Shown here piece by piece: positions 299-48,667 of a stretch of DNA of 48,667 nucleotides. The position numbers were made by a program, and so were the translations under genes. The notes under the pieces were generated by a model that worked only from the letters and a program-made list of their open reading frames with translations, did no database searches and had not been told where the DNA came from. Positions within the stretch are counted from its first letter, which is position 1, and each line of letters begins with the position of its first letter. The DNA comes from an uncultured Rhodospirillales bacterium (lineage in GTDB: Bacteria > Pseudomonadota > Alphaproteobacteria > Acetobacterales > Acetobacteraceae), in NCBI GenBank assembly GCA_903927465.1, contig CAIYMY010000039.1:1-48667 (forward strand), written 5' to 3'.

Positions 299-1210
299 AT
301 GGCCACTCATCAGCTCAAGGTTCAGGAACCCTTCCGCGCGCTGTTTTATGCGCCGTTCTATGCCGCACTTGCGCGCGGCGATTATGCGGCGGAAGGGGTG
401 GAGGTAACACTGCTGCCCGGCGCCGTGCCATCGCTTGCGAAGGATTCGGTATTGGACGGCACGGCGGACCTCGCCTGGGGTGGGCCGATGCGTCTGTTGC
501 TGGCACATGATGCCGATCCCGCCTGCCCTTTGCGCCTGTTCGGCGCAGTGGTGATGGGCGATCCCTTCTTCCTGGTCGGGCGGCAAGCCAACCCCGGCTT
601 CAAGCTGCGCGATTTGGCGCAAATGAAGCTTGGCACCGTGAGCGAAGTGCCAACCCCCTGGTGGACATTGCAGGACGATATCCGCGCGGCAGGGATTGAT
701 CCTGCAGCGATCAAGCGGGTCACGGACCAGACCATGCCGGCCAATGCAGCAGCCGTTGCGTCTGGTGCGTTGGATGTGGCGCAGCTCTTTGAGCCTCTGG
801 TGAGCCAGATGGAAGCCGCCGGCACCGGCCATGTCTGGTATGCGCAGGCAAGCCGTGGTCCTACTTCCTATACGGCCTTTTATGCCCGCACGGATGTCAT
901 CGCCGCCAAGCGCGCGGCCATGGAAGCGATGGTGCGCGGGCTGGGGCGGACGCTTCGTTGGTTTGCTGCTGCCTCACCTGAAGAAATCGTCGCTTGCATC
1001 GCGGCGTTTTTTGAAGGCGGCGATCACGCGCTGATGGCGCGCGCCATTGCGCGCTACAAATCCGTGAAGCTTTGGACCGATACGCCGCACTTCCCGCCGG
1101 AAGCGCTGGCACAATTGGAACGCGGCATGCTTTCCGCCGGCGCCATCAAGCGCACGCCTGGCTTTGCTGGGTTGGTCGCGGAAGATGTGACGGAAAGCGC
1201 GCTCTGTTAG
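299..1210 (+). CDS. NMT1/THI5-like ABC-transporter substrate-binding protein without signal peptide
   Basis: 303 aa. The N-terminal pattern (FRALFYAPFYAALARGDYAAEGVEVTL) and the later GTADLAWGGPMRLL are typical of NMT1/SsuA-type type-2 periplasmic binding folds, which bind small organic ligands such as pyrimidines or sulfonates. The protein begins MATHQLKVQEPF with no hydrophobic signal segment, so it may be cytoplasmic or its start may be misjudged. No better upstream start exists, because the SDR stop is only 6 bp away. The CCCFC motif of true THI5 pyrimidine synthases is absent. No permease or ATPase gene is adjacent. The TAG stop is formed at the left edge of the 103-bp repeat element. 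The ligand is unknown. Confidence 0.75.
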   Translation: MATHQLKVQEPFRALFYAPFYAALARGDYAAEGVEVTLLPGAVPSLAKDSVLDGTADLAWGGPMRLLLAHDADPACPLRLFGAVVMGDPFFLVGRQANPGFKLRDLAQMKLGTVSEVPTPWWTLQDDIRAAGIDPAAIKRVTDQTMPANAAAVASGALDVAQLFEPLVSQMEAAGTGHVWYAQASRGPTSYTAFYARTDVIAAKRAAMEAMVRGLGRTLRWFAAASPEEIVACIAAFFEGGDHALMARAIARYKSVKLWTDTPHFPPEALAQLERGMLSAGAIKRTPGFAGLVAEDVTESALC

Positions 1211-1311
1211 AGCGGTTTCCGTTCACGTGCGTTCACGGGAACCGCTCTAACCCATTGTTTGGTAGCATTTTCCGAGCCGCCAAGTGATTCCACTTGGCTT
1301 GAAAATGCTCC
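1209..1311 (+). repeat. 103-bp two-hairpin RIME-like intergenic element, copy A
   Basis: Hairpin 1 (1209-1248, 40 bp) has arms AGAGCGGTTTCC / GGGAACCGCTCT with one G-T wobble. A 16-bp linker containing ATTGTTT follows. Hairpin 2 (1265-1308, 44 bp) has outer arms GCATTTTC/GAAAATGC, inner arms GCCAAGTG/CACTTGGC and an ATTC loop. A 3-bp tail TCC ends it. The upstream gene's TAG stop at 1208-1210 uses the first two bases of the element. It lies between convergent genes and could act as a bidirectional terminator. The layout resembles rhizobial RIME1 as I remember it (about 106-109 bp, two palindromes). Confidence 0.9.
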
Positions 1312-1315
1312 AACT

Positions 1316-2491
1316 TCACCCGCGCGGCAGTAACTGTTCGGTCAGCGTCGCCCAATAGGAAGCGCCAACCGGCAGGATATTGTCGTTGAAATCATAAAGC
1401 GGGTGATGCACCTGTGCTTCATTCGGCCCGCGCCCGCCGCCTAGCATCAGATAAGCGCCTGGCTTGGCATTGAGCATGAAAGAAAAATCCTCACCGCCCA
1501 TGGTGGGTTTTGCCATGGGCACTACGCGGGCTTCACCCTGCACGGCGCGGGCGGCCTTGGCGGCCAAATGCACGCTTTCCACTTCATTGATCGTCGCGGG
1601 ATAGGCGCGGGCGAATTCGGCGGTGGCAGTCGCCCCCATTGCGGCGGCGATGCCGGTCACGGTTTCCTTGAAGCGACGTTCCAGCAAATCGCCAATCTCT
1701 GGCGCGAACCAGCGCGCGGTGCCCAGCATGCGCACGGTCTCGGGGATCACGTTGAAAGTATGCCCACCAGCGATATGGCCAATGGTGATCACGCCCGCTT
1801 CCACCGGTTCCACATTGCGCGCGACAATGGATTGCAGCGCCTGCACAATGGCGGCGGCGACAACAATGGGGTCCGTGCCATTATGCGGCATGGCGCCATG
1901 CGCCCCTTTGCCGGTGATATTCACTTCAAGATTGGCCACCGCCGCCATTACCGGCCCTTCGCGCCACAGGAAGGTGCCTTCCGGTGCGCCTGGCCAATTA
2001 TGCATGCCAAAGACGCGTTCCATGGGAAAGCGCGTAAACAGCCCTTCCTTCACCATCAATTCGCCGCCCGCCAGGTTTTCTTCCGCCGGCTGGAAAATCA
2101 CATAAACCGTGCCGTCGAAATTCCGCGTTTCAGCAAGATACTTCGCGGCGCCGAGTAGCATGGTGGTATGCCCATCATGGCCGCAGGCATGCATTTTCCC
2201 CGGAATTTTCGAGGCATAAGGCAGGCCGGTTTCTTCCAGGATCGGCAGCGCATCAATATCGGCGCGCAGGCCAATGGCGCGGCCATTATCAATGCGCCCA
2301 CGGATCACGCCGACAATCCCGGTCTTGGCGATGCCGGTCACCACCTCATCACAGCCGAATTCACGCAGCTTTTCAGCGATGATGCCGGAAGTGCGCACCT
2401 CCTCCAGCCCCAATTCGGGGTGTTCATGAAAATCGCGCCGCCAGGCGGTCATTTCGGGATGGAATTCGGCAATGCGGTTGATGATCGGCAT
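1316..2491 (-). CDS. M20-family amidohydrolase (hippurate hydrolase / N-acyl amino acid hydrolase type)
   Basis: 391 aa, the usual length for this family of cytoplasmic metal-dependent amidohydrolases that split N-acyl amino acids or similar amides. Diagnostic stretches are RRDFHEHPELGLEE near residue 20, GLRADIDALP near 75-83, the metal motif HACGHDGHTTMLLG (residues 101-114) and FQPAEEN with its acidic pair (about 134-139). A HHPLYDFND stretch lies near the C-terminus. The start is preceded by AAGGAAG. It follows the NmrA-like gene by 12 bp and is probably the last gene of a three-gene minus-strand operon with the sugar-acid dehydratase. The precise substrate cannot be read from the sequence. 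Confidence 0.9.
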   Translation of the reverse strand: MPIINRIAEFHPEMTAWRRDFHEHPELGLEEVRTSGIIAEKLREFGCDEVVTGIAKTGIVGVIRGRIDNGRAIGLRADIDALPILEETGLPYASKIPGKMHACGHDGHTTMLLGAAKYLAETRNFDGTVYVIFQPAEENLAGGELMVKEGLFTRFPMERVFGMHNWPGAPEGTFLWREGPVMAAVANLEVNITGKGAHGAMPHNGTDPIVVAAAIVQALQSIVARNVEPVEAGVITIGHIAGGHTFNVIPETVRMLGTARWFAPEIGDLLERRFKETVTGIAAAMGATATAEFARAYPATINEVESVHLAAKAARAVQGEARVVPMAKPTMGGEDFSFMLNAKPGAYLMLGGGRGPNEAQVHHPLYDFNDNILPVGASYWATLTEQLLPRG

Positions 2492-2503
2492 GGGAAGTCT
2501 TCC

Positions 2504-3358
2504 TTACTTCTTTTCGGTAGGGGCGAAGGTCAGCGCCAACCCCTGTTCCAGCGGGATCGGTGAAAGGCCAAGAATATCGCGCATGGGCGCAATGTCGAAA
2601 GCCTTGTCTTCCGTCAAGCGACGAATTTCATCGGCGCCAATCGATGGCAGGCCTGGAATGACGCGCGTAAACCACGCCAAGCCACGCAGCAACCCAAGCG
2701 GCAGCGGCAGCACCGGGCGCGCACCGAGCCCCGCAGCGCGCACCACAGCGGCGAGGAAATCGCGATAAGGCACGGGTTCCGGCCCCGCGATCACAATGCT
2801 GGTGGGGCCTTTCCAGGGATGGCGCGCGGCGGCGAGCAAGGCGCGCGTCACGTCGCTTTGATGGATGGGCTGCACCAGGGACAGCCCTCCCCCAGGCAGG
2901 GGCGCAAAGGGCAAGCGGCGCAAAAGCGCGGCCAGGCGCTGGACATTATCTTCGCCCTCTGCGCCATAGACCATGGTTGGGTGCAGCATGACGCCAGCGC
3001 GCCCGCTGGCAAGCAAGGCGGCCTCACCCGCGCGCAAGCCATCCCCATGGGCATCCGCCCAGCGCGAATAGCGCCTTGTGGAGCCCATCAGCACAAAGCG
3101 CGCATCGGCCGGCGTGGCGGCCAGGATGGCGGGAGCATGGCGCGCATGGGCAGTGCTGATGACAAGCGCAGTGCCTTCAAGTGCAGCGCGTAGCGCGGCG
3201 GCATCACCGAGTTCAGCGATGCGCGGCACCCCCGGCAAGCCAAGCGCCGCCCATTTCGCCGCATCGCGCACCACCGGCGTGAAGGGCGTGCGTTCAGCCA
3301 GCAAAGCGCGGGCGAGTGCCGCGCCGCTCCGCCCCGAAGCGCCAATCAGCGTAATCAA
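2504..3358 (-). CDS. NmrA-like / atypical SDR NAD(P)-binding protein
   Basis: 284 aa. It starts MITLIGASGRSGAALARALL, the glycine-rich nucleotide-binding loop of atypical (extended) SDR proteins. HPTMVYGAEGEDNVQRLAALLRR in the middle is typical of NAD-dependent epimerase or NmrA-like proteins. The YxxxK-like Y sits in VYGAEGED, but a clear catalytic lysine is not visible, so it may be a sensor-like or quinone-reductase-like member. The ATG overlaps the dehydratase stop as ATGA (3355-3358), indicating translational coupling. Function unknown. Confidence 0.8.
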   Translation of the reverse strand: MITLIGASGRSGAALARALLAERTPFTPVVRDAAKWAALGLPGVPRIAELGDAAALRAALEGTALVISTAHARHAPAILAATPADARFVLMGSTRRYSRWADAHGDGLRAGEAALLASGRAGVMLHPTMVYGAEGEDNVQRLAALLRRLPFAPLPGGGLSLVQPIHQSDVTRALLAAARHPWKGPTSIVIAGPEPVPYRDFLAAVVRAAGLGARPVLPLPLGLLRGLAWFTRVIPGLPSIGADEIRRLTEDKAFDIAPMRDILGLSPIPLEQGLALTFAPTEKK

Positions 3359-5052
3359 GGCGCGGCGCGCAAAAACGCCAAATCAGCGCCAAGCGGTGCC
3401 TGCGTCACCTGATCATAAACCAGCTTGTCCCAGCCGCGCTTGGGCGCCGGGGCGGGTTGCCAGGCAGCGCGGCGGCGGGCCAATTCATCTTCCGCCACCA
3501 ACAAATCAAGCTTACGGTCCTTCACCGAAAGCCGGATGCGATCACCGGTTTGCACCAAAGCAAGCGGCCCACCAACTGCCGCTTCCGGGGCAATATGCAG
3601 CACAATCGTGCCGAAGGCCGTGCCGGACATGCGGCAATCGCTCATGCGAACCATATCCTTCACGCCGGCGCGGGCGAGCTTCTTCGGGATGGGCAAATAA
3701 CCCGCTTCCGGCATGCCAGAGGGCGAACGTGGCCCGGCATTTTTCAGCACCAAAATATCCTGCGCGGTGACATCCAATGCCGGGTCGTCAATGCGGTTGG
3801 CCAAATCCTCCAACCCATCAAACACCATGCAGCGCGCTTCAGTTTCAAACAGCGTGGGCGTGGCAGCGCTGCGCTTGAGAATCGCACCATCTGGCGCGAG
3901 CGAGCCAAATAACGCCACCAGGCCGCCGACCGGGGAGACAGGTTCGCTGAACGCGCGGATGATGCGCCGATCCACGAAATGGCTGCCATCACCAATCCGG
4001 TCCGCCAGGCTCACGCCATCCAGATCAATCGTCGTCAGGTCAAGCAAATCGCGCAATTCCCACAGCAATGCGCGCATGCCGCCAGCCGCGTGGAAATCTT
4101 CCATATAGCCATCGCCGGTTGGCTTCAGATCCACCAGTACCGGCGTTTCCTCGGACAGCGCATCCAGCCGCTTGAGGTCAAGCGAAAGCCCCGCGCGCCC
4201 GGCAATAGCGGCCATATGCACCACCGCATTGGTGGAACCGCCCAAGGCCAGCAGCACGCGCACGGCATTATCCAGATTGCCCTGCGTCATCATCTGGCTG
4301 GGCAGGATGGGGTTCTTGATCAGCCGCACGGCCTGCGCGCCGGCTTCTTCCGCAATGCGAAGCCTATCGGCATGCACGGCGGGCGCACTCGCGCCGGCCA
4401 ATGGCATGAAGCCAAGGGTCGCGGCAATGCAGGCCATGGTGGAAGCCGTGCCCATCACGCCGCAAGTGCCGGCGGTGGTGGCAAGCTTGCCTTCCAATTC
4501 GCCAATCCGCGCCTCGGTCACTTCCCCGGCGCGATAACGTGCCCAATAGCGCCGACAATCCGTGCAGGCGGAAAGCCGCTCACCTTCAAAGGCCTGCGCC
4601 AGCATAGGGCCGGTGACGAGCATTACTGCCGGAATATTCGCCGAAATCGCCGCCATAAGCTGCGCCGGCACAGTTTTGTCGCAGCCGCCCACCAGCACCG
4701 CCGCATCCATCGGCTGGGCGGAAAGCATCGCTTCCGTATCAAGCGCCATCAGATTGCGATAATGCATGGAACAGGGGCTGAGCGATGGCTCACATAGGCT
4801 CACGGTCGGGAAGCCAAGCGGCAAAGCGCCTTCGGAAAGCACGCCGCGGCGCACGGCTTCGATCAGTTCCGGCACGGTGCGGTGGCAGTTATTGTAGTCG
4901 CTCGCGGTATCGGCGATGCCGACCACGGGTTTGTCCAGCATGCGCTGCGAATAACCCATGGATTTGGCGAAGGACCGCCGCAGGTACAACGCAAAATCGC
5001 GATCCCCGTAATTAGATGTATTGCGGGACAGGCCGTGGGGTTTGTCGCTCAT
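3355..5052 (-). CDS. IlvD/Edd-family dehydratase, probably a sugar-acid dehydratase
   Basis: About 565 aa from the chosen start MSDKPHGLSRNTSNYGD. A longer in-frame start at 5091 exists, but 5052 has a GGAAG ribosome site about 10 nt upstream. Iron-sulfur cysteines are visible in VGGCDKTVPAQ, SACTDCRRYW and the TAGTCGVMGTASTMAC stretch. The later SDCRMSGTAFGTIVLHIAPEAA is the usual C-terminal signature. NYGD at the N-terminus and the overall form resemble arabinonate/xylonate-type dehydratases more than branched-chain IlvD, which would suit sugar-acid catabolism (inference). It heads a minus-strand operon diverging from rplM. Confidence 0.88.
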   Translation of the reverse strand: MSDKPHGLSRNTSNYGDRDFALYLRRSFAKSMGYSQRMLDKPVVGIADTASDYNNCHRTVPELIEAVRRGVLSEGALPLGFPTVSLCEPSLSPCSMHYRNLMALDTEAMLSAQPMDAAVLVGGCDKTVPAQLMAAISANIPAVMLVTGPMLAQAFEGERLSACTDCRRYWARYRAGEVTEARIGELEGKLATTAGTCGVMGTASTMACIAATLGFMPLAGASAPAVHADRLRIAEEAGAQAVRLIKNPILPSQMMTQGNLDNAVRVLLALGGSTNAVVHMAAIAGRAGLSLDLKRLDALSEETPVLVDLKPTGDGYMEDFHAAGGMRALLWELRDLLDLTTIDLDGVSLADRIGDGSHFVDRRIIRAFSEPVSPVGGLVALFGSLAPDGAILKRSAATPTLFETEARCMVFDGLEDLANRIDDPALDVTAQDILVLKNAGPRSPSGMPEAGYLPIPKKLARAGVKDMVRMSDCRMSGTAFGTIVLHIAPEAAVGGPLALVQTGDRIRLSVKDRKLDLLVAEDELARRRAAWQPAPAPKRGWDKLVYDQVTQAPLGADLAFLRAAP

Positions 5053-5142
5053 GCGGGCGGTTCTTCCGAAAAGGTTGCCGTAAGGCGCCAAATAAGCATT
5101 CTGGCGCGGTCGAGGGTAGGGCCAAGCGAGATTGCGGTATCA

Positions 5143-5157
5143 TGTTACCACATAACA
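5143..5157. promoter_or_regulatory. Candidate operator: perfect inverted repeat TGTTA-N5-TAACA
   Basis: TGTTA CCACA TAACA forms a perfect 5-5-5 inverted repeat in the intergenic region between the divergent dehydratase gene (start 5052) and rplM (start 5238). It sits 16 bp upstream of the rplM -35 box. Half-sites of this kind are common for dimeric repressors. No regulator gene is adjacent, so the binding protein is unknown. Confidence 0.4.
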
Positions 5158-5173
5158 AAATCCGGCTTTGCGC

Positions 5174-5202
5174 TTGACTTTTCGGCGCCTGGCCCGGATA
5201 AG
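5174..5202 (+). promoter_or_regulatory. Sigma-70-type promoter for rplM-rpsI
   Basis: TTGACT (5174-5179), a 17-bp spacer and GATAAG (5197-5202) match the housekeeping consensus well. They lie 36 bp upstream of the rplM ATG. This is the best promoter match in the gap and would drive the ribosomal protein operon. Confidence 0.6.
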
Positions 5203-5237
5203 CCCGCTTCCTTTCCATAGGTTTATTCGGAACCACC

Positions 5238-5723
5238 ATGATTGCCACGCAAACCCGCTCGCTGAAGCCGGCGGAGGTCAAGAAGAACTGGGTGTTGATT
5301 GATGCGGATGGGCTTGTGCTCGGCCGCCTCGCCACCCTGGTCGCCAATCGCCTTCGCGGTAAGCATAAGCCGCAATTCACGCCCCATGTGGATTGTGGTG
5401 ACCATGTTGTCATCATCAATGCGACGAAGGTACGTGTCACCGGCGCCAAGGCGGAACAGACCGTGTTCTATTGGCACACCGGTTATCCGGGCGGCATCAA
5501 GGGCCGCACCATCCGCGAACGCATGGAAGGCCGTTTCCCGGAACGCGTTATTGAAAAGGCGGTTGAGCGCATGATCAGCCGCGGCCCGCTTGGCCGGGCG
5601 CAGATGCGCAACCTCCATGTTTATGGCGGGGCCGAACATCCCCATGCCGGTCAGCAGCCTGCTGCCCTGGATGTGGCTGCGCTGAACCGTAAGAATTCCC
5701 TCGCAGTGAAGAAGGTGGTCTGA
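5238..5723 (+). CDS. rplM: 50S ribosomal protein L13
   Basis: 161 aa, normal for alphaproteobacterial L13, an early-assembling 23S rRNA-binding protein. Recognisable stretches are [52 protein letters not shown] and [21 protein letters not shown]. It is followed after 4 bp by rpsI in the nearly universal rplM-rpsI operon. A promoter with TTGACT/GATAAG lies just upstream. Confidence 0.98.
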
Positions 5724-5727
5724 GGCT

Positions 5728-6219
5728 ATGAGCGGCGAAACCAAGACCCTCGCGGACCTCAAGGAAATCGTGGCCGGCACGCCTGCTGCCACGGTGGAAG
5801 CGGCGATCAAGCTAGAACCCAAGCGCGATGCACAGGGCCGTTCCTATGCCACTGGCCGGCGCAAGAACGCGATCGCCCGCGTCTGGATCAAGCCGGGCAA
5901 GGGCCAGTTCACCATCAACGACCACCCTGCGTCGAAGTATTTCGCCCGCCCGGTGCTGCGCATGTTGATCACCCAGCCCTTCCTGGTTGCGGATCGCTAT
6001 CAGCAATTCGATGTCATCTGCTCGGTCGTGGGCGGCGGTTTGTCCGGCCAGGCCGGTGCGGTGCGTCATGGCATCAGCCGCGCGCTTTGCTATTTTGAAC
6101 CGGATCTGCGCTCCATCCTGAAAAAAGCCGGCTTCCTGACGCGCGACCCGCGCGTGGTGGAACGCAAGAAGTATGGGCGCCCGAAGGCACGACGTTCCTT
6201 CCAGTTCTCCAAGCGCTGA
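5728..6219 (+). CDS. rpsI: 30S ribosomal protein S9
   Basis: 163 aa. S9 binds the 3' major domain of 16S rRNA, and its C-terminal tail contacts P-site tRNA. The sequence has [37 protein letters not shown], and the basic end [10 protein letters not shown] that is typical of S9. The N-terminal extension of about 35 residues is common in alphaproteobacteria. It is co-transcribed with rplM and followed by a strong intrinsic terminator-like hairpin at 6268-6295. Confidence 0.98.
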
Positions 6220-6267
6220 CGCCAGCGGACCGGCGTCGCGCCGGTTCCGTCTTGGAATCTTCATCAA

Positions 6268-6295
6268 AGGGGCGGGTCCGCAAGGGTCCGCCCCT
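6268..6295 (+). terminator. Intrinsic terminator-like hairpin after rpsI
   Basis: A 12-bp stem (6268-6279 with 6284-6295; AGGGGCGGGTCC / GGGTCCGCCCCT, with two central G-T wobbles) is closed by a GCAA tetraloop and followed by ATTGCATTT. The U-run is weak but the stem is very stable. It separates the ribosomal protein operon from argC. Confidence 0.75.
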
Positions 6296-6334
6296 ATTGC
6301 ATTTGGACAGGTTTAGCGCCGCAATGCGGCGATT

Positions 6335-6437
6335 AGTGTGTGTCTCGTTCTCATTCGTTCACGTGACACACACTAAGACTTTGTTTGCTCGCATTTTCCG
6401 AGTCGCCAAGTGAAATCACTTGGCTTGAAAATGCTCT
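6335..6437 (+). repeat. 103-bp two-hairpin RIME-like element, copy B (in the argC leader)
   Basis: Hairpin 1 (6335-6374) has perfect 10-bp arms AGTGTGTGTC/GACACACACT. A 16-bp linker with CTTTGTTTG follows. Hairpin 2 (6391-6434) has the same arms as the other copies but an AAAT loop. The tail is TCT. Bases T (6334) and A (6438) flank it. The GTTCAC motif sits at positions 23-28 of hairpin 1, as in all copies. Unlike copies A, C and D it is not at a convergent gene junction. It lies between the rpsI terminator and argC, ending 2 bp before the argC ribosome site. Confidence 0.9.
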
Positions 6438-6452
6438 ACGGGAGATCGTACC

Positions 6453-7403
6453 ATGGCAAAGACAGCGAAGATTTTTATTGATGGCGAAGCCGGCACCACG
6501 GGTCTGCAAATCCGTGACCGTATTGCCGCCAATCCGCATGTTGAATTGCGCTCCATCGCGGCGGAACACCGCAAGGATGCCAATGCCCGGCGTGAGATGA
6601 TGGCCGGCGTTGACCTGGTGATCCTATGCCTGCCGGATGATGCGGCGAAGGAAAGCGCGGCACTCGCGGCTTCGTTGGGTGCGCAGGCGCCGAAGCTGCT
6701 GGATGCGTCAACCGCCTATCGGGTTGATCCCGATTGGGTTTATGGGCTGGCGGAACTGACGCCCGATCAGCCGGGCGCCATTGCAGCGGCATCGCGCGTT
6801 TCCAACCCCGGCTGCTACCCGACCGGCGCCATTCTGATGCTGCGCCCGCTAATTGATGCTGGCATCATGGCGCCTGATTTTCCCATCACGGTGAATGCGG
6901 TGTCGGGCTATTCCGGCGGCGGCAAATCCATGATCGCGGCTTATGAAGCACGGACCGCACCGGATTTTGAGCTTTACGGCTTGGGGCTGGAACACAAGCA
7001 TGTCGCGGAGATGCAGAAATATACAGGCCTGACGCGTCGGCCCATTTTCGTGCCCTCGGTCGCGGATTACGCGCAGGGCATGATCGATTCCATCCCGCTG
7101 CATCTGGATATGCTGAAGGGCAGTGTAACGCCGGCTAATCTGGAAGCGCTGCTGATGAAGCGTTACGCCGGCAGCGATGTGGTGCGGGTGGTGTCAGCGG
7201 AAGCCAATGGCAAGCTGGAGCCCGAGGCGCTGAACGGCACCAATGGCCTTGAAATCCGCATCTATGGCAATGAAAAGCGCGGCCAGGCCGTGCTGGTTGC
7301 GCGGTATGATAATCTGGGCAAAGGCGCTTCCGGTGCGGCGGTGCAGAATCTTGGCTTGATGCTGGGCATTCCTGTTTCCGCTGATCTGCCGAAGGCGGCG
7401 TAG
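6453..7403 (+). CDS. argC: N-acetyl-gamma-glutamyl-phosphate reductase (type 2)
   Basis: 316 aa. It reduces N-acetylglutamyl phosphate to the semialdehyde with NADPH in arginine synthesis. The short type-2 form is shown by [18 protein letters not shown] at the N-terminus and the catalytic cysteine in [11 protein letters not shown] (Cys121). [13 protein letters not shown] follows. The ATG is preceded by GGGAG within ACGGGAGATCG, only a few bases after repeat copy B, so the repeat's second hairpin forms most of the leader. It is followed by the carbonic-anhydrase-like gene, whose Shine-Dalgarno overlaps the argC stop. Confidence 0.96.
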
Positions 7404-19999: not shown

Positions 20000-20108
20000 G
20001 GGCGTTTCCCTTTGGCGAATGCTACGCCCCTTCTACCCCGTTGCGCGCCCCCCGCGCCACCGCTGGGCTTGCGCAAGCCTGCGTGAGGGCGCAATTAATT
20101 AGCTGAGA

Positions 20109-20198
20109 CACCTGGGGGAGCCCTTTTGGGGCTGAGAGGCGGGCTTCACCCGCGACCCCTGGAACCTGACCCGGTTCGGACCGGCGTAGGGAACGGTG
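20109..20198 (+). promoter_or_regulatory. TPP riboswitch (THI element)
   Basis: The conserved core is plain: GGGGCTGAGAGGCGGG, then GACCCCTGGAACCTGACC, then GGCGTAGGGAACGG. P1 is closed by CACC (20109-20112) with GGTG (20195-20198). After the aptamer, CCGTT near 20204 can pair with AACGG of the P1 side, and GCCCC-TTAGCG-GGGGC (around 20221-20237) forms a hairpin, giving a plausible switching region. A weak promoter TTGCGC/CAATTA (20069-20097) precedes it. The controlled gene is the family-5 binding protein at 20299. Confidence 0.95.
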
Positions 20199-20298
20199 CA
20201 TCGCCCGTTGCCTCGCGTTTTGCCCCTTAGCGGGGGCAGCGCGTGCTGGGCCAAAGCCCCTTTCCCGCGTTATCCGACAGGAAATGAAGGAATTGGGG

Positions 20299-21876
20299 AT
20301 GCAGCGCCGCACACTTCTCGCCACCGCCTTGGCCGCGCCTTTGGCGCGCCCCGCTTTGGCGCAAACCAACCGCGCGCGGACGCTGCGCTTCATGCCGCAG
20401 GCGGCACTTGCCAATCTGGACCCGATCTTCAGCCCCAGCACCATCATCACCACGCATGGCTATTGCGTGTTTGATACACTCTATGGCGCCAATCGCGCGC
20501 TGCAGCCGCGCCCGCAAATGGCGGAAGGCCATAGCGTGGAGGATGACGGCAAGCTCGTGAAAATCCGCCTGCGCGATGGCTTGCGCTGGCATGATGGAGA
20601 GCCCGTGCGTGCCCAAGATTGCGTGGCCAGCATCAAGCGCTGGGCCAGCCGCGACGGCTTCGGCCAAATCCTGATGCGCGCGACGGCTGAGCTTTCCGCC
20701 GCCGATGACCGCACCATCCAATTCCGCCTGCATCGACGCTTCCCCGCGCTGTTTGATGCTTTGGCCAAACCGGGCGCTTCGCCCTGTTTCATGATGCCGG
20801 AACGTATTGCAAGCCTGCCCGGCGATCGGTCCTTGGGGCTGGAACACATGATCGGCAGCGGGCCGTGGCGCTTCATTGCCAGTGACTATGTGCAAGGCAG
20901 CCGCAGCCATTATGCGCGGAATGACGCCTATGTGCCGCGGGATGAACCCGCCGAAGCCGCTTCCGGCGGCAAGCGCGTGCATTTTGATCGGCTGGAGATG
21001 ATCTGGATTCCAGATGGCGGCACGGCGGCGGCGGCACTCCGCACCGGGGAGATTGACTGGATCGAATACCCTTTGCCGGATTTGGTGCCGGTGCTGGAAC
21101 GGGACCGCAATACGCAAACCCAGATTTATGACCCAAACGGGTTTTTGGGTTTTCTGCGCTTCAATCATTTGCACCCACCCTTCAATGATGTGCGGGTGCG
21201 CCGCGCCATTCGTGATGTGATCGTGCAATCGGATTTCATGTCGGCGGTGGCGCTGCAAGGTGACTGGCAGGAATGCCACGCCATGTTCCCTTGCGGCCTG
21301 CCAGGCGTGGTGGAATTCCCCCCCGCTGCGCGCGGCGAAGCGGCCATGGAACGCGCCCGCGCGGCGTTGCGTGAAGCCGGCTATGCCGGGGAGCCCATTA
21401 TCCACATCAACCCAAGCGATTTTCCCGCCGTGACGCAGCAAGGCCGCCTGACGGTGGAACTGATGCGCAAGCTTGGCGTGAATATCCAGCCGATTGAAGC
21501 GGATTGGGCCACCATTCTGGCGCGGCGCGCCAATCGTAACCCGCCCGCGCAGGGTGGCTGGCATTTGCACAATACCAATGGCCCGGCAGCGACCATCGCC
21601 AATCCGGCCGTGAGCTTCGCCATTCGCATGAATGGGCTGGCTGCCTGGCCTGGCTGGCCAACAGATGCGGAAGCCGAAGCGCAGGTGGAAGCCTGGATCG
21701 CCGCGGATGGTCAGGCGGCGCAGGATGCTGCGATGCGGCGCTTGCAGGAAATCACCTGGGAATCGCTGCCCTTCGCGCCGACCGGGCTGTTCCGTCTGCG
21801 CACGGCCTTCCGGCGTGAATTATCCGGCGTGCTGCAAGGGCCGAACCCCTTCCTTTGGAATCTGCGGCGGGCTTAG
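20299..21876 (+). CDS. ABC-transporter family-5 solute-binding protein, under TPP riboswitch
   Basis: About 525 aa, the peptide/nickel/opine SBP_bac_5 class. The start MQRRTLLATALAAPLARPALA gives a twin-arginine-like signal peptide. AAGGA lies 7 nt before this ATG, which makes it preferable to the ATG at 20284. Family stretches are LDPIFSPSTIITTHGYCVFDTLYG, LRDGLRWHDGEPVRAQDCVASIKRW, IGSGPWRF and DVRVRRAI. No permease or ATPase gene follows, so it must borrow a transporter or act alone. The riboswitch suggests the ligand is thiamine, a thiamine precursor or a degradation product (inference). The TAG stop coincides with the left end of repeat copy C. Confidence 0.88.
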   Translation: MQRRTLLATALAAPLARPALAQTNRARTLRFMPQAALANLDPIFSPSTIITTHGYCVFDTLYGANRALQPRPQMAEGHSVEDDGKLVKIRLRDGLRWHDGEPVRAQDCVASIKRWASRDGFGQILMRATAELSAADDRTIQFRLHRRFPALFDALAKPGASPCFMMPERIASLPGDRSLGLEHMIGSGPWRFIASDYVQGSRSHYARNDAYVPRDEPAEAASGGKRVHFDRLEMIWIPDGGTAAAALRTGEIDWIEYPLPDLVPVLERDRNTQTQIYDPNGFLGFLRFNHLHPPFNDVRVRRAIRDVIVQSDFMSAVALQGDWQECHAMFPCGLPGVVEFPPAARGEAAMERARAALREAGYAGEPIIHINPSDFPAVTQQGRLTVELMRKLGVNIQPIEADWATILARRANRNPPAQGGWHLHNTNGPAATIANPAVSFAIRMNGLAAWPGWPTDAEAEAQVEAWIAADGQAAQDAAMRRLQEITWESLPFAPTGLFRLRTAFRRELSGVLQGPNPFLWNLRRA

Positions 21877-21977
21877 AGCATGTTGCGTTCACATAGGTTC
21901 ACGCAACCCGCTCTAGAGCTTTGTTTTTCGAGCATCTTCACGCGTTCAGATGATTCCATCTGAACGCGATCTGCTCT
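21875..21977 (+). repeat. 103-bp two-hairpin RIME-like element, copy C (diverged sequence, same architecture)
   Basis: Hairpin 1 (21875-21914) has AGAGC/GCTCT ends and a TTGCGT/ACGCAA inner stem. The 16-bp linker contains CTTTGTTTTTCG. Hairpin 2 (21931-21974) is quite different in sequence from the other copies but keeps the 44-bp length, a 12-bp inner stem CGCGTTCAGATG/CATCTGAACGCG and the ATTC loop. The tail is TCT. GTTCAC is again at positions 23-28. TAG stops of both convergent genes (21874-21876 and, on the minus strand, 21978-21976) are formed at its two edges. Confidence 0.88.
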
Positions 21978-22824
21978 AGCAACCGCCCGGCGCGTCTTCC
22001 AGCTTCATCAGCTTGGCGCGTACGGTGAAGTCGCCGAAATCCATGATCATGTCATCCGCCACGCCATTTTCGAAGTAGCGGAGCGAGACTTCATAGGATG
22101 GCGTGCTCGCCCCGTCAGCTTGCTCGGCATCGGGTTCAAAAAAGGCGATGCGCATGCGCGATGAACCGAGCGTGGAAAGGCTCGGCGCTTCAGGCACGGG
22201 CTGAGGCCCCTGCCAGGGCGACAAAACTGTCGTCGTCTGCTGCGCGCCATCAGCGGTGGTGCCATCGAAAATCGGCGCGACCAGCAGGCGTTGGCCGGCG
22301 CGGGCTGCGTTCAGCGCGGCGATGGTATGCGTATTGGGCAGCAGCGTCCCGGCTGGGATGGGCAATTCCTTCACTTCCGGTTCGCTGTAGCGCGCGACAC
22401 CACTGCCATCCGCAGTCAGCTCCGCCTGGCCGACCACGCGACTGCTGACAGCGCCTTGCCTCATATGCGTCAGGCTGAAACGCAAATTCCGGCCATCCAT
22501 GGATTCCAGCGTGGCGTAATCAGAACCTGTTTCAAGTTCTGTACCTTCGCGGTTGCGCAGCGTCATGGTGAAGCGCTGGCGCGACGCCCAGCTTTCGCAG
22601 GCGTCAATTATTTCAAATAGCATCGCGCCAGAGACATCAACAATGGTCGCATTCTCCCGCGCACGATCCAGCGTCAGCGCATAGATGCCGCGATGGGATG
22701 CGAGCGCACGCGCCGTGAGTGGCGCGAGCGGCGCGGTGGCAGCCGGCGCATCCTTCGCCCCCTGGGTCAGGCCAGGGGTGGCGGGCAGGATCAGCGCAAG
22801 GGCCAGCAGGGCAGAAAACCGCAT
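21976..22824 (-). CDS. eipB: EipB-family (DUF1849) periplasmic cell-envelope protein
   Basis: 282 aa with a signal peptide (MRFSALLALALILPATPGLTQG). LASHRGIYALTL at 41-52 is the family signature. EipB is a periplasmic beta-spiral protein conserved in alphaproteobacteria and linked to envelope integrity in Brucella. Two cysteines, Cys76 in IIDACESW and the C-terminal Cys282, match the family's long-range disulfide pair. The C-terminal cysteine is immediately followed by TAG, which uses the edge of repeat copy C. The gene stands alone on the minus strand. Confidence 0.9.
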   Translation of the reverse strand: MRFSALLALALILPATPGLTQGAKDAPAATAPLAPLTARALASHRGIYALTLDRARENATIVDVSGAMLFEIIDACESWASRQRFTMTLRNREGTELETGSDYATLESMDGRNLRFSLTHMRQGAVSSRVVGQAELTADGSGVARYSEPEVKELPIPAGTLLPNTHTIAALNAARAGQRLLVAPIFDGTTADGAQQTTTVLSPWQGPQPVPEAPSLSTLGSSRMRIAFFEPDAEQADGASTPSYEVSLRYFENGVADDMIMDFGDFTVRAKLMKLEDAPGGC

Positions 22825-22919: not shown

Positions 22920-24725
22920 TCAGCCCGGCTTGCTACCCTTCACTGGCGGCAGATCCAACTTGATGTGCAATTCCTTGAGCCGTTCTGGCGGCACCGGGGC
23001 CGGGGCGCCCATCATCAAATCCTCGGCCTGCTGGTTCATCGGGAACAGGATCACCTCACGAATCGCGGGTTCATCGGCGATCAGCATCACAATCCGGTCA
23101 ATGCCGGGGGCCGAGCCACCATGCGGCGGCGCGCCATAGCGGAAGGCATTCAGCATGCCGCCAAAGCGATGTTCCACTTCTTCCGCCGGATAGCCCGCGA
23201 TTTCAAAGGCGCGGATCATGATGTCCGGGCGATGGTTGCGGATGGCGCCTGACGAAAGCTCAATCCCGTTGCAGACGATGTCGTATTGGAAGGCCTTGAT
23301 GTCCAAGGGGTCCATGGAATTCAGCGCCTCCAGCCCGCCCTGCGGCATGGAGAAGGGGTTGTGGCTGAATTCGATCTGGCCGGTATCTTCATTCCGTTCA
23401 TACATCGGGAAATCCGTGACCCAGCAGAAGCGGAAGGCGTTTTCTTCAAGTAATCCAAGGTCACGCCCCACACGATTTCGCACGGCGCCGGAGAATTTCC
23501 CGGCCTCCGCTGCCTTATTCGCCACAAAGAACACGGCATCGCCCGCGCCCAGGCCGCAAGCGGCAGCAATGGCGGCCACGCGATCAGCTTCTAAATTCTT
23601 AGCAATCGGTCCCTTCGCGCCATCGGCATCCCAGGCGATATAGCCAAGCCCGCCCTGGCCTTCCGCGCGCGCCCATTCATTCAGCCCATCAAAGAAAGAC
23701 CGCGGACGGCCCGCCGCGCCAGGTGCTGGAATGGCGCGTACCACGCCACCCGAAGCAGTGACTTTCGCAAACAAACCAAAGCCGCCACCCGCGAAATGCG
23801 CACTCACATCGGTGATCTTGATTGGGTTGCGCAAATCCGGCTTGTCCGAACCATATTCCAGCATCGCCTGCTGATAAGGGATGCGCGGGAAGGGCGCTGG
23901 CGTCACGGCGCGCTTCGTGCCGGACCAATCGGCGAATTCCTCAAACACGCCAGCCAGCACCGGTTCAATCGCAGCGAAGACATCTTCCTGCGTCACAAAA
24001 GACATTTCGAAATCAAGCTGGTAGAATTCGCCTGGGCTACGATCCGCGCGCGAAGCCTCATCACGGAAGCAGGGCGCGATTTGGAAGTAGCGATCAAACC
24101 CCGCCACCATGCAAAGCTGCTTGAATTGCTGCGGTGCCTGCGGCAGCGCGTAGAACTTGCCCGGATGCAGCCGTGCCGGCACCAAGAAGTCCCGCGCACC
24201 TTCAGGGCTGGAAGCCGTCAAGATCGGGGTTTGGAATTCCGTAAAACCCTGATCAATCATCCGCCGGCGGATGGAAGAAATCACTTGGCTGCGCAGCATC
24301 AGATTGCGATGCTGCCGCTCCCGCCGCAGATCTAAAAAGCGATAGCGCAGGCGCAATTCTTCAGGGAATTCGGCATCACCCGCCACTTGAATGGGCAGCA
24401 CTTCGGCGGCGGATTGCACTTCCACTTCACGCACGCGAAGTTCAATCGCGCCCGTCGGCAGCTTGGCATTCACCGTGCCGGCTTCGCGCGGCACCACATC
24501 ACCCGTGACGGTAATCACGCTTTCGGGGCGGAGTTCTTCCAGCAGCTTCAGCACGGGCGAACCCTGCGCCACCACGCATTGCGTCATGCCGTAATGATCG
24601 CGCAAATCAATGAACAGCAAGCTGCCATGGTCGCGCTTCCTGTGCACCCAGCCGGAAAGCCGCGCGGGGGAGCCGGCATCGGAAGCGCGGAGTGCGCCGC
24701 AATGATGGGTACGATAGGCATGCAT
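22920..24725 (-). CDS. aspS: Aspartyl-tRNA synthetase (bacterial type)
   Basis: 601 aa class II synthetase. The N-terminal OB-fold anticodon-binding domain contains [24 protein letters not shown]. Motif 2 is [25 protein letters not shown], and motif 3 contains [27 protein letters not shown]. The bacterial insertion (GAD) domain lies between. Many alphaproteobacterial AspRS enzymes also charge tRNA-Asn. Whether this one does depends on GatCAB, which is not in the window. It diverges from rnd across about 110 bp. Confidence 0.98.
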
Positions 24726-24835
24726 GGCAAAAATTCATCCTAAGTGGCGGAAAGGCGGGGGAAAGCGCCCCAGGGAGGGGTTTCTGTCAACCCCACCGCT
24801 TTCCCGGGACCCTGCGCCCCTGTATGGAACCTGTC

Positions 24836-26023
24836 ATGAACCGTCGCCATGCCGTCCCGGCAGCCGAACAAAGCCCCGCCCTGATCACCGATACAGGGAG
24901 CCTCGCCGCGCTTTGCGACAGGCTGCAGCATGAGCCCTTCGTCACCGTGGATACTGAATTCATGCGTGAACGCACCTATTGGCCAGAACTCTGCCTGGTC
25001 CAATTGGCCGGCCAGCATGAGGTTGCGCTGGTGGATGCCCTGGCGCCGGGGCTCGATCTTGGCCCCCTCGGCGAATTGATGGCGCAGCCACATGTGGTGA
25101 AGGTCTTCCACGCCGCGCGGCAGGATGTGGAAATTTTTCTGCTGAAATTCGGCGCAGTGCCCCACCCGATTTTCGATACGCAAATCGCTGCCATGGTGGC
25201 CGGTTTCGGGGATCAGGCGTCCTATGATTCTCTTTGCCGGTCACTCGCCGGGGTGCAGATAGACAAGGCCCATCGCTTCAGCGATTGGTCCGCCCGGCCC
25301 TTATCCGATAGCCAATTGGCCTATGCGGCGGCGGATGTGACGCATCTGCGCAAGATTTTTGTCTCCCTCACGCTAAGCCTGGAACGGGAAGGCCGGATCG
25401 ACTGGGTGGGGCAGGAAATGGGTGCGCTGGCCGACCCCGCGACCTATTTGACCGACCCGGACACCGCTTGGGAAAAGCTTCGCCCGCGCACGTCAAACCG
25501 GCGGTTTTTGGGCGTTTTGCGCGCCATCGCCGCCTGGCGGGAACGCGAAGCCCAGCGCATCAATATCCCGCGCCAGCGGCTGGTGAAGGATGACACGCTG
25601 CTGGAGATCGCCGCCACCATGCCCGATGGCCCGGCGGAATTGGCCCGCGCGCGGGGGATTTCGGAGAACTTCGCCAAGGGCAAAAGCGGTGAGGGGCTGC
25701 TGGCGGCCATCCGCCAGGCCCGCGCTTTGCGCGAAGAAGAATTGCCGCAATTGCAGAAGGAAAAGGTCGGCCCGCCACCTTCCCCAGCGCTGGTGGCGCT
25801 GCTCAAGGTGCTGCTGGCCGCGAAGTCCGAGGAGCACGATGTCGCACCCCGCTTGCTCGCTTCCAGCGATGATCTGGAAAAGCTGGCCACCGGGCAGGAA
25901 GATGTGTCGGCACTGCATGGCTGGCGGCGGGAAGTGTTTGGGGAGGCCGCTTTGGCGCTGCGGTCCGGCCAATTGGCGCTTGGGGTGGATGGCAGGCGGG
26001 TGAAGCTGATCCCGGCGGGTTAG
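24836..26023 (+). CDS. rnd: Ribonuclease D
   Basis: About 395 aa. The DEDDy 3'-exonuclease motifs are present: FVTVDTEFMRER (Exo I), KVFHAARQDVEIF (Exo II) and LAYAAADVTHL (Exo III). A C-terminal HRDC-type region follows (REREAQRINIPRQRLVKDDTLLEIA). RNase D trims tRNA and other stable RNA 3' ends. Starts at 24836 (MNRRHAV) and 24824 (MEPVMN) are both possible; GGAAC upstream favours 24836. The protein ends IPAG, and its TAG stop lies at the left edge of repeat copy D. Confidence 0.94.
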   Translation: MNRRHAVPAAEQSPALITDTGSLAALCDRLQHEPFVTVDTEFMRERTYWPELCLVQLAGQHEVALVDALAPGLDLGPLGELMAQPHVVKVFHAARQDVEIFLLKFGAVPHPIFDTQIAAMVAGFGDQASYDSLCRSLAGVQIDKAHRFSDWSARPLSDSQLAYAAADVTHLRKIFVSLTLSLEREGRIDWVGQEMGALADPATYLTDPDTAWEKLRPRTSNRRFLGVLRAIAAWREREAQRINIPRQRLVKDDTLLEIAATMPDGPAELARARGISENFAKGKSGEGLLAAIRQARALREEELPQLQKEKVGPPPSPALVALLKVLLAAKSEEHDVAPRLLASSDDLEKLATGQEDVSALHGWRREVFGEAALALRSGQLALGVDGRRVKLIPAG

Positions 26024-26124
26024 TGCGCGTCCCGTGCACATTCGTTCACAGGACACGCACTAAACTTTTGTTTTGTCGCATTTTCCGAGTCGCCAAGTGA
26101 TCTCACTTGGCTTGAAAATGCTCT
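26022..26124 (+). repeat. 103-bp two-hairpin RIME-like element, copy D
   Basis: Hairpin 1 (26022-26061) has arms AGTGCGCGTCC/GGACACGCACT with one mismatch and GTTCAC at 23-28. The 16-bp linker is followed by hairpin 2 (26078-26121) with the common arms and an ATCT loop. The tail is TCT. The rnd stop TAG (26021-26023) and the convergent gene's TAG (26125-26123 on the minus strand) are both made at its ends. The sequence immediately outside is palindromic: CCCGGCGGGT on the left and ACCCGCCGGG on the right. Confidence 0.92.
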
Positions 26125-26473
26125 AACCCGCCGGGTTCCAGTCAAAAAGAATTATCGCGGCCGCCGCCAGGCCCAACACGCTGAACACCATGGACAGCAT
26201 GGGCCAGGCATCGCGCGGGCCGCGCATGGCAATCACAGCATTGCCAACCAAGGATACCATCACCGCCGCAATCGGCTGGGACCAATGCAATTCCCGGAAC
26301 CCCCAGACAATCAGTGCAATCCAGGTGACAAACGCCGCGCGTGACAGCCAAACCCAGAAGGTGGACGCGACTTCGGAAGCCGGGCGCATTTCTGGCGCAG
26401 GGCTTTTGGAATGGATGAAGGCGCCGATCGAAAGCAGCACCATGGCGGTGAAATACAGGGTCACCCCCCTCAA
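26123..26473 (-). CDS. Small membrane protein with about four transmembrane helices, unknown function
   Basis: 116 aa. Hydrophobic segments are near residues 4-20 (VTLYFTAMVLLSIGAF), 38-60 (TFWVWLSRAAFVTWIALIVWGF), 67-83 and 92-110. It ends DWNPAG. The start is uncertain: TTG at 26473, GTG at 26464 next to a G-rich run, or ATG at 26443. I recognise no family. It is divergent from the glycosyltransferase pair and convergent with rnd, and its stop is formed by repeat copy D. Confidence 0.6.
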   Translation of the reverse strand: MRGVTLYFTAMVLLSIGAFIHSKSPAPEMRPASEVASTFWVWLSRAAFVTWIALIVWGFRELHWSQPIAAVMVSLVGNAVIAMRGPRDAWPMLSMVFSVLGLAAAAIILFDWNPAG

Positions 26474-46783: not shown

Positions 46784-47449
46784 TTACTTGCCGTTGAGCG
46801 CCGCGATCACGCCCGCCATAGCAGACTGAAACATTTCAGGCGTCAGCCGCCGGGTTGAGGTATTGTAACGGCTCACATGATAGGAATCGGCCAGGATCAG
46901 CCCATCGGGCAGGCGATGCCGCGCGCCATGGGTGAAGGCAAAGCGCGAAGCCGGAATGCCCTTGGCGCGGAGCAGCGCGTTATGCGCCACCACCCCCAAA
47001 GCGAGCACCACACGCAGGGCCGGCATGCCAGCAAGTTCGGCCTTCAAGAAGTCATTGCAGGCGCGGATTTCTACCGGTAGCGGCAGGTTTTCCGGTGGCA
47101 CGCAGCGCACCGCATTGGCAATGCGGCAGCCGGTCAACTCCATGCCATCCTTCGGGTCTTCGCCATAGGCGCCGCGGGCCAGGCCATATTCCAGCAAGGT
47201 CGTGTAAAGCAGCTTGCCGGCATAATCCCCGGTGAAGGGCCGCCCGGTCCGATTGGCGCCACGCACCCCGGGCGCCAAGCCCAGCACCAAAAGTGGCGCC
47301 TGTCGCTGGCCCCAGGAAGGCACGGGCGCGTTATGCCAGCCGGGTTCCTTCGCCCGATTGGCGGCGCGATATTCGGCAAGCCTTGGGCAAAGCGCGCAAT
47401 CGCGCCCGGGTGCTGACGCCTGTCCGCTTCGCGACCGCTCAGCAGACAC
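46784..47449 (-). CDS. Uracil-DNA glycosylase, family 5-like (iron-sulfur type)
   Basis: 221 aa from a GTG at 47449. Iron-sulfur ligands appear in RDCALCPRL (Cys18, Cys21), NAVRCVPPEN and RACNDF. The active-site loop is LGLAPGVRGANRTGRPFTGD, with the thermophile/actinobacterial UDGb-like G-A-N-R-T-G pattern. The C-terminal DNA-intercalation loop is SYHVSRYNTSTRRLT. It removes uracil (and often hypoxanthine or ethenocytosine) from DNA. There is no ATG before the first cysteine motif, so the start lies inside the degraded hairpin 1 of the repeat array, which encodes the first dozen residues. A downstream GTG/TTG start would remove only a few residues. Confidence 0.9.
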   Translation of the reverse strand: MSAERSRSGQASAPGRDCALCPRLAEYRAANRAKEPGWHNAPVPSWGQRQAPLLVLGLAPGVRGANRTGRPFTGDYAGKLLYTTLLEYGLARGAYGEDPKDGMELTGCRIANAVRCVPPENLPLPVEIRACNDFLKAELAGMPALRVVLALGVVAHNALLRAKGIPASRFAFTHGARHRLPDGLILADSYHVSRYNTSTRRLTPEMFQSAMAGVIAALNGK

Positions 47450-47744
47450 GTGCTAAACCATTGTCTGATCGCATTTTCCGAGTCGCCAAGTGATTCCACT
47501 TGGCTTGAAAATGCTCAAGGTTTGATCGCATTTTCCGAGTCGCCAAGTGATTCCACTTGGCTTGAAAATGCTCAGGATTTGATCGCATTTTCCGAGTCGC
47601 CAAGTGATTCCACTTGGCTTGAAAATGCTCAGGGTTTGATCGCATTTTCCGAGTCGCCAAGTGATTCCACTTGGCTTGAAAATGCTCAAAGTTTGATCGC
47701 ATTTTCCGAGTCGCCAAGTGATTCCACTTGGCTTGAAAATGCTC
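47415..47744 (+). repeat. Tandem array: degraded hairpin 1 plus five copies of hairpin 2 at 57-bp period
   Basis: Hairpin-2 units begin at 47471, 47528, 47585, 47642 and 47699, exactly 57 bp apart. The 46-bp core from GCATTTTC to GCTC is identical in all five, while the 11-bp spacers ending TTTGATC vary at two or three positions. The first copy keeps the 16-bp linker (47455-47470) and a decayed hairpin 1 (47415-47454, ending GACACGTGCT). The array separates the NYN and UDG genes. Identical cores with variable spacers suggest recent or continuing tandem duplication. Confidence 0.95.
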
Positions 47745-47759
47745 AGGCCCAGCGCTCAT
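47439..47759 (-). CDS. Repeat-encoded open reading frame (five 19-residue repeats), doubtful gene
   Basis: 106 aa, starting MSAGPEHFQAKWNHLATR and repeating a 19-residue unit five times because the DNA period is 57 bp. Its ATG overlaps the NYN gene's TGA as ATGA (47756-47759), so ribosomes finishing the NYN protein could restart here. It ends GLARVC inside the UDG start region. Composition (His, Lys, Arg, Trp) is set by the palindrome rather than by any known fold. Most likely a by-product of the repeat; translation is possible. Confidence 0.25.
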   Translation of the reverse strand: MSAGPEHFQAKWNHLATRKMRSNFEHFQAKWNHLATRKMRSNPEHFQAKWNHLATRKMRSNPEHFQAKWNHLATRKMRSNLEHFQAKWNHLATRKMRSDNGLARVC

Positions 47760-48491: not shown

Positions 48492-48506
48492 GCCCAGCGC
48501 GCCGGA

Positions 48507-48667
48507 GCATTTTCAAGCCAAGCGGTATCGCTTGGCGGCTCGGAAAATGGGACCAAACAGACGGAAGCATTTTCAAGCCAAGCGGTATCGCTTGGCGGCT
48601 CGGAAAATGCGACCAAAAATCAAGCATTTTCAAGCCAAGCGGTATCGCTTGGCGGCTCGGAAAATGC
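48507..48667 (-). repeat. Inverse-oriented array of three hairpin-2 units with altered inner stem
   Basis: Three 44-bp units (48507-48550, 48567-48610, 48624-48667) run in the opposite orientation to the other copies. They keep the outer arms GCATTTTC/GAAAATGC, but the inner stem is CCAAGCG/CGCTTGG instead of CCAAGTG/CACTTGG: a T-A pair has become C-G on both arms. The loop is GTAT on this strand. Unit spacing is 60 and 57 bp. The first unit ends ATGG instead of ATGC. The array reaches the window end, so more copies may follow. Confidence 0.93.

Follow-up and report, generated by a model that had tools for sequence, protein, structure and literature searches.

The element dispersed through the window (the whole 48,667-nucleotide stretch of contig CAIYMY010000039.1 analysed here, from an uncultured Rhodospirillales bacterium) is best read as a MITE, a further representative of the CIR/RIME type that has already been described in Caulobacter and rhizobia. 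In the full reading, to which we assign a probability of roughly 0.8, the element is non-autonomous, depends for its movement on IS630-family transposases acting in trans and has its two palindromes maintained as DNA, an influence of CcrM being the weaker part. The first-pass annotation had left three functions open, namely a mobile MITE, a structured RNA and a terminator; the first is borne out by empty alleles in relatives and by TA duplication, and neither a structured sense RNA nor a terminator stood up to analysis.

Copies, boundaries and gene context

Four copies of one constant length, each composed of two hairpins whose arms differ by paired changes, had been described in the window, and this description holds, since all four align without gaps and, as claimed, carry GTTCAC at positions 23-28 of hairpin 1 (numbering from 1209). 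The limits originally given were slightly too narrow: the copies lie where they had been placed, and their natural ends extend the element to 107 alignment columns with the termini TTAG...CTAA, or a mutated form of these, comprising a 101-bp core flanked by two TA positions (Table 1). Compared with 200 shuffles, the two-hairpin fold of each of these four copies has a z-score between -5.3 and -6.5. Beyond the four, a fifth copy continues into a tandem array, and because the contig ends inside another hairpin-2 array, repeats of this sort are probably points at which the assembly breaks, and the copy counts given here are low estimates.

Table 1 Element copies and hairpin-2 arrays in the window.
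Feature	Position	Strand	Remarks
Full element, subfamily A	1207-1313	+	TA at 1208-1209; right TA mutated to CA; GANTC at 1286
Full element, subfamily A	6333-6439	+	Between a probable rplM-rpsI pair and argC; GANTC at 6400
Full element, subfamily B	21873-21979	+	GANTC at 21952
Full element, subfamily A	26020-26126	+	GANTC at 26087
Fifth copy, hairpin 1 degenerate, opening an array	47413-47519	+	
Five tandem hairpin-2 units, 57-bp period	47463-47747	+	Ten GANTC sites
Oppositely oriented array of three or more hairpin-2 units, up to the contig end	48505-48667	-	GANTC: none

Within the window, the element coincides with stop codons at 1207, 21873 (both sides) and 26020: the first copy provides the TAG stop (1208-1210) of ORF 299-1210, the second fills the exact gap between the stops of the convergent ORFs 20284-21876 and 21976-22824, and the third provides the TAG stop of the ribonuclease D gene (24692-26023). 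The names rplM and rpsI beside the copy at 6333 are our presumption from ORF size and order. ORF 20284-21876, the end of which falls in the element at 21873, encodes a substrate-binding protein and has a TPP riboswitch just upstream (RF00059, 69 bits; 20104-20210, plus strand). This riboswitch is the only Rfam match at gathering scores in the window, with none at the element copies.

Copy number and covariation in the genome

A covariance model (R1) built from the four window copies was searched against the 3.78-Mb genome, with 150 of 851 candidates scored and a cut-off of E<=0.001. In the same Roseomonas-like genome, this search, which the first-pass annotation had named as a check, gave 140 matches, some of them overlapping or array pieces. 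The four window copies themselves were recovered at E values of 4e-27 to 3e-20 as the training set, so the independent support for the family is provided by the remaining matches, outside that set. As only part of the candidates was scored in each search (135 per genome in the 29-genome search described below, and 9 or 10 in the class and phylum searches), all match counts are lower bounds.

The proposed covariation of the stems was examined statistically on an alignment of 83 matches, 77 of them distinct and a few being array pieces. None of 500 shuffles attained the covariation score or as many doubly changed cells, and double changes were found in 25 of 33 pairs, a number reached by 5 of the 500; the shuffle statistics retain relatedness, and this alignment, like the 41-copy one described below, is fitted to the model structure. 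Paired cells amount to 86% in the 83-match alignment, as compared with only 31-43% in slid structures. Of the two outcomes that the first-pass annotation had named as refuting its reading, a genome-wide search returning these four copies alone and a lack of significant covariation, neither was observed. Chance palindromes were rejected on the fold z-scores and on covariation against shuffles.

The hairpin-2 motif separates 71 aligned copies into two subfamilies: A, with 56 copies and a mean identity of 0.74 (0.65 in hairpin 1 and 0.88 in hairpin 2), and B, with 15 copies and a mean identity of 0.91, a high value that suggests recent spread. A further hairpin-2 unit follows 8 of the 71 copies (counted by eye). 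Subfamily and flank lists, several copy sequences and the IS and MITE ends considered below were likewise read by eye.

Strong folding and compensatory change (25 of 33 pairs in the genome, 31 of 33 class-wide) are also what would be expected of a structured RNA, or of a pair of mRNA-processing hairpins under selection at the transcript level, and ERIC repeats influence mRNA stability according to a review (PMC2229807). Selection acting on a plus-strand transcript predicts an excess of G-U over A-C mispairs, against which we counted 40 G-U versus 71 A-C in hairpin 1 and 39 versus 48 in hairpin 2 within the genome, and 25 versus 28 and 24 versus 21, respectively, class-wide. Together with the patchy presence of the element and the lack of an Rfam match at its copies, these counts make a transcript-level function quite unlikely. 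A sense-RNA role was rejected on the ground that G-U is not favoured over A-C. With G-U not above A-C, the palindromes look as if they are kept as DNA, either for recognition or because one arm is corrected from the other.

Empty sites and TA duplication

Joined-flank queries were made for 24 of the 71 aligned copies against eight related genomes, and the 30 loci returned were read at base level. All 30, representing 11 of the 24 sites queried, are empty alleles crossing the junction, and a single TA stands at the junction in 23 of the 30 loci and 8 of the 11 sites; three of the 11 empty sites have no TA at the junction, and several alignments contain small gaps beside the TA. Some other joined-query matches were split in two pieces, as expected if the site is filled in the relative too (for example 26020 in G008). 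Site 26020 has an empty allele with TA in all five relative loci read, site 1207 is empty in four, with TA in two of these, and site 21873 is empty in one, with TA and a 10-base insertion. Among 16 close-relative loci of the rpsI-argC site at 6333, including two from one MAG, two are filled (L089 and L097) and the other 14 unfilled. In the genome itself, 58 of the 71 copies retain the left TA, and only 23 have an intact right TA.

Stop-codon TAs carry an excess of insertions, and there the G that opens the core restores TAG in either orientation. The left TAG terminates an open frame of at least 80 codons in 18 of 49 cases, as compared with 6 and 3 in the shifted frames, and the right-end TAG does so in 9 of 20 cases, as compared with 2 and 3.

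The precise position of the copy at 21873 between two convergent stops, and the T-rich TTGTTT following hairpin 1, would suit a bidirectional transcription terminator placed between genes. Against this function, the stop-codon cases are about equally common on the left (18/49) and right (9/20), the same sites are element-free in relatives, and a terminator scan of 1100-7000 called neither hairpin of the two copies in that region, giving only a 6-pair hit that overlaps the left end (1200-1214). The scan returned 4 sites versus 6.6 in shuffles, and a separate terminator-like hairpin candidate lies at 6268-6295 in the rpsI-argC region. A terminator was rejected because the scan does not call the element hairpins, and we regard such a role as very improbable.

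Hairpin geometry that is kept despite sequence change, and hairpin-2 units arranged head to tail, also recall REP/BIME elements, whose movement would proceed via a single-stranded hairpin and a RAYT (Y1) transposase. The empty sites show TA duplication, and to our knowledge Y1 enzymes make none, so that we give this route hardly any credence.

GANTC sites in the element

Of the 71 own-genome copies, 52 contain the CcrM site GANTC, as compared with a mean of 24.7 and a maximum of 37 in 200 shuffles; most of these sites fall at two fixed positions of hairpin 2, namely the apex (39) and the inner loop (23). Class-wide, it is found in 31 of 41 copies (shuffle mean 16.4, maximum 24). Its density is 8.56 per kb in the 71 copies versus 0.92 in the rest of the window, about ninefold, and no other of the 16 pentamers of the same form is as strongly enriched; TCNGA comes next (6.8-fold) and owes its enrichment to a conserved stretch. 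The window as a whole is depleted of GANTC, with 58 sites versus a mean of 149 in 20 shuffles. CcrM is encoded in the genome, as shown by a RAMA domain and by matches to 6pbd (CcrMI) at 1.8e-142 and to NF050803 at 3.9e-179, the latter lying under the curated cut-off. For alphaproteobacteria, both GANTC depletion and a GANTC excess in intergenic DNA are reported in a published study (PMC3973325), and the element copies could account for part of that intergenic excess.

From the enrichment at two fixed places within a depleted window, it might be supposed that the elements are placed CcrM sites, serving as marks on the chromosome and kept for that purpose, with mobility belonging to their past. 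GANTC is, however, absent from 19 of the 71 copies and from the entire array at 48505-48667, TCNGA is enriched too, and the distribution is patchy between close species, as for a parasite; moreover, similar sites in IS ends, described below, could explain those of the element by descent. Maintenance as chromosome marks thus appears unlikely.

Distribution in Alphaproteobacteria

The family is class-wide and not peculiar to the genome of the window. The host had been guessed to be a member of Acetobacteraceae, which agrees with the nearest named contigs, those of Roseomonas-type MAGs followed by Neoroseomonas. A model of the 71 copies (R2) matched 12 of 20 genomes in a search of relatives; among 385 genomes of the class, it matched 26 at E<=1e-5. 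Both counts include the own genome. The R2 class hits, copies from nearer relatives and three own copies were combined into a class-wide alignment of 41 copies, in which double changes occur in 31 of 33 pairs, the covariation is 0.581 versus 0.193 in shuffles, all five covariation measures were reached by none of 500 shuffles, and slid structures score far lower.

Searched in the 29 genomes to which named loci belong, the model derived from this alignment (R3) matched 19 at E<=1e-4. Copy number is patchy in related species, with 99 matches in Neoroseomonas soli versus 2 in N. alkaliterrae; N. eburnea has 95, Falsiroseomonas selenitidurans 79, a Caulobacter MAG 17 (best 1.8e-15) and a Rhizobiaceae MAG 9, and R3 matches were absent from two Paracoccus, a Bombella and a Kiloniella. 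In the phylum search, 49 of 398 genomes matched (own included), all of them being the own genome or belonging to the same family or the same class. On Sinorhizobium meliloti pSymB (NC_003078.1), R3 gave 14 matches at E<=0.01 (best 6.7e-10; one short), and on pNGR234a (NC_000914.2) a single match at the same cut-off. At least two of the pSymB matches (L228 and L229) and the pNGR234a match (L221) resemble a second two-palindrome family of rhizobial plasmids, which lies around 1501-1607 in these three loci, has the ends CTACTGCATG and is, we assume, perhaps RIME2. When plasmids were searched with the 107-bp query, one Novosphingobium record was returned, with hairpin 2 alone (NZ_CP140001.1, 205359-205404; 89%).

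A candidate mover among IS630-family transposases

The TA duplication pointed to IS630, the family to which the transposase search was confined. A search with PF13358 found only two IS630 fragments and no intact IS630 partner in the own genome, an assembly of 220 contigs, and gave matches in 13 of 16 other genomes. In several of these IS630, the ends are TAGAGC or close to it. Those so identified are two of G565 (1051 and 1047 bp) and one of G733 (about 1045 bp), together with a single end each from G005, G757, the Caulobacter MAG and each of two G007 IS. GANTC stands at 22-24 and 53-58 in all six transposase-side ends read (four genomes), as compared with none of five opposite ends. All three transposases tested matched NF033545 (IS630 family).

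Relatives of the query transposase were found in 971 plasmid records. Among 40 hits listed, 14 were examined, and 11 with both ends resolved were retained (L371, L373 and L374, which have no resolved end pair, were left out). These 11 span 1038-1068 bp, and one is annotated as ISRm2011-2. Ten of the 11 start with TAGAG (L381 being read after a 5-base shift), a proportion that is not an independent sample because the query itself was a TAGAGC-type IS. On the transposase side, GANTC is located at about 23 in 10 of 11, about 58 in 10 of 11 and about 35 in 5 of 11, and two (L381 and L382) have GANTC at the other end. The arrangement with GANTC at about 23 and about 58, and in some at about 35, was seen at the transposase-side end of L342, L344, L345, L346, L355, L356, L372 and L375-L383. 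L384 has TAGAGC ends and no GANTC, and of three IS630 with other ends (L348, L349 and L369) one has GANTC within 80 bases of its ends (two sites at one end).

ISRm2011-2-type IS630 thus share with the element the TAGAGC ends and GANTC near one end, and differ from it in being about 1050 bp long, encoding a transposase and lacking the two-hairpin body. From the first base on, IS end and MITE end agree over 17 bases in the Caulobacter MAG; for one of the two G565 IS, the shared stretch is 11 bases. Most pairs share only the short end TAGAGC, and in four of six genomes, as well as for the second G565 IS, the agreement within a genome, assessed with one or two MITE copies per genome, is no better than that between genomes. 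The right end of subfamily B, used as a probe for a full IS, hit 20 places in the genome, all within R1 matches.

Discussion

On the reading preferred here, the element would be a non-autonomous transposon of about 103 bp, in which a core of the form GAGC...GCTC is inserted at TA with duplication of the TA. Its mover in trans would probably be IS630-family transposases of the ISRm2011-2 type, to judge from their likewise TAGAGC ends. The hairpins would be kept as DNA palindromes and not as sense RNA, serving transposase recognition or being maintained as one arm corrects the other through template switching. Given that GANTC occurs both in the element and at set positions of the transposase-side IS end, we infer, less firmly, that CcrM methylation, and with it the replication cycle, may affect expression of the transposase or transposition; Dam acts on IS10 in a comparable fashion.

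It is worth comparing the element with the repeats already known. CIR, the Caulobacter CcrM-associated intergenic repeats, were reportedly described by Chen and Shapiro in 2003. In a 2007 review, CIR are described as about 110 bp long with two long inverted-repeat arms, a linker and TA termini, with GANTC at or in the terminal loop and with many alphaproteobacterial copies, and more information on their movement is called for, the mechanism being left open (PMC2229807). In the same review, RUP of pneumococcus and Correia/NEMIS of Neisseria are described as about 107 bp long, with TA ends and target duplication, RUP being ascribed to an IS630 (PMC2229807). Size, TA ends and target duplication are shared by our element with these two, but they form, as described there, a single stem by pairing of the 5' and 3' ends, have no two arms with a linker, and differ in host and sequence. 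With CIR, the element has in common its size, the two arms and linker, the TA ends, GANTC in hairpin 2 and 17 matches in the Caulobacter MAG, a likeness that refers to the description in that review and not to the sequences of CIR1-CIR4. As differences, two copies in the Caulobacter MAG read by eye carry no GANTC, and TA empty sites have been seen for the window element.

RIME1 and RIME2 are intergenic repeats of S. meliloti said to have been described by Osteras et al. in 1995. RIME1 consists of two large palindromes in about 106-109 bp, was named rhizobium-specific, being reportedly restricted to Rhizobiaceae, and has its type site between chvI and chvG. The likeness to RIME1 that had been noticed from the sequence is right as to kind, with two large palindromes at about 108 bp and the 14 model matches on pSymB, at least two of which look like members of the other family. 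The window family is class-wide, in contrast to the reported restriction of RIME1, and the closest description found is that of CIR. As for the type site, a search for ChvG-type loci in 30 genomes other than that of S. meliloti yielded 29 loci, with two weak matches to the element (2.4e-4 and 0.0059), neither of them convincing. RIMEs are mentioned in PMC2573895 and PMC2245857; a targeted search of open-licence literature found no paper on RIME1 palindromes or alphaproteobacterial MITEs.

The link to IS630, combined with the fixed CcrM sites, is the part that may be new. In the titles and abstract openings of open-licence literature, nothing was found that links GANTC or CcrM with IS630 ends (PMC9296519, in which the words GANTC, CcrM and IS630 occur, not being included) or CIR/RIME-type repeats with an IS. 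More tentatively, and with rather more doubt than confidence on our part, RIME1, CIR and the window element might constitute one class-wide MITE superfamily carried by ISRm2011-2-type IS630, in which the IS, through GANTC at two or three set positions of the transposase-side end, and the MITE, through GANTC in its hairpin loops, are alike wired to CcrM and transposition in Alphaproteobacteria is gated by the cell cycle. For CIR, the question of mobility now becomes directly testable, given TA empty sites resolved to the base, a specific IS630 type as candidate and CcrM sites at set positions in its end.
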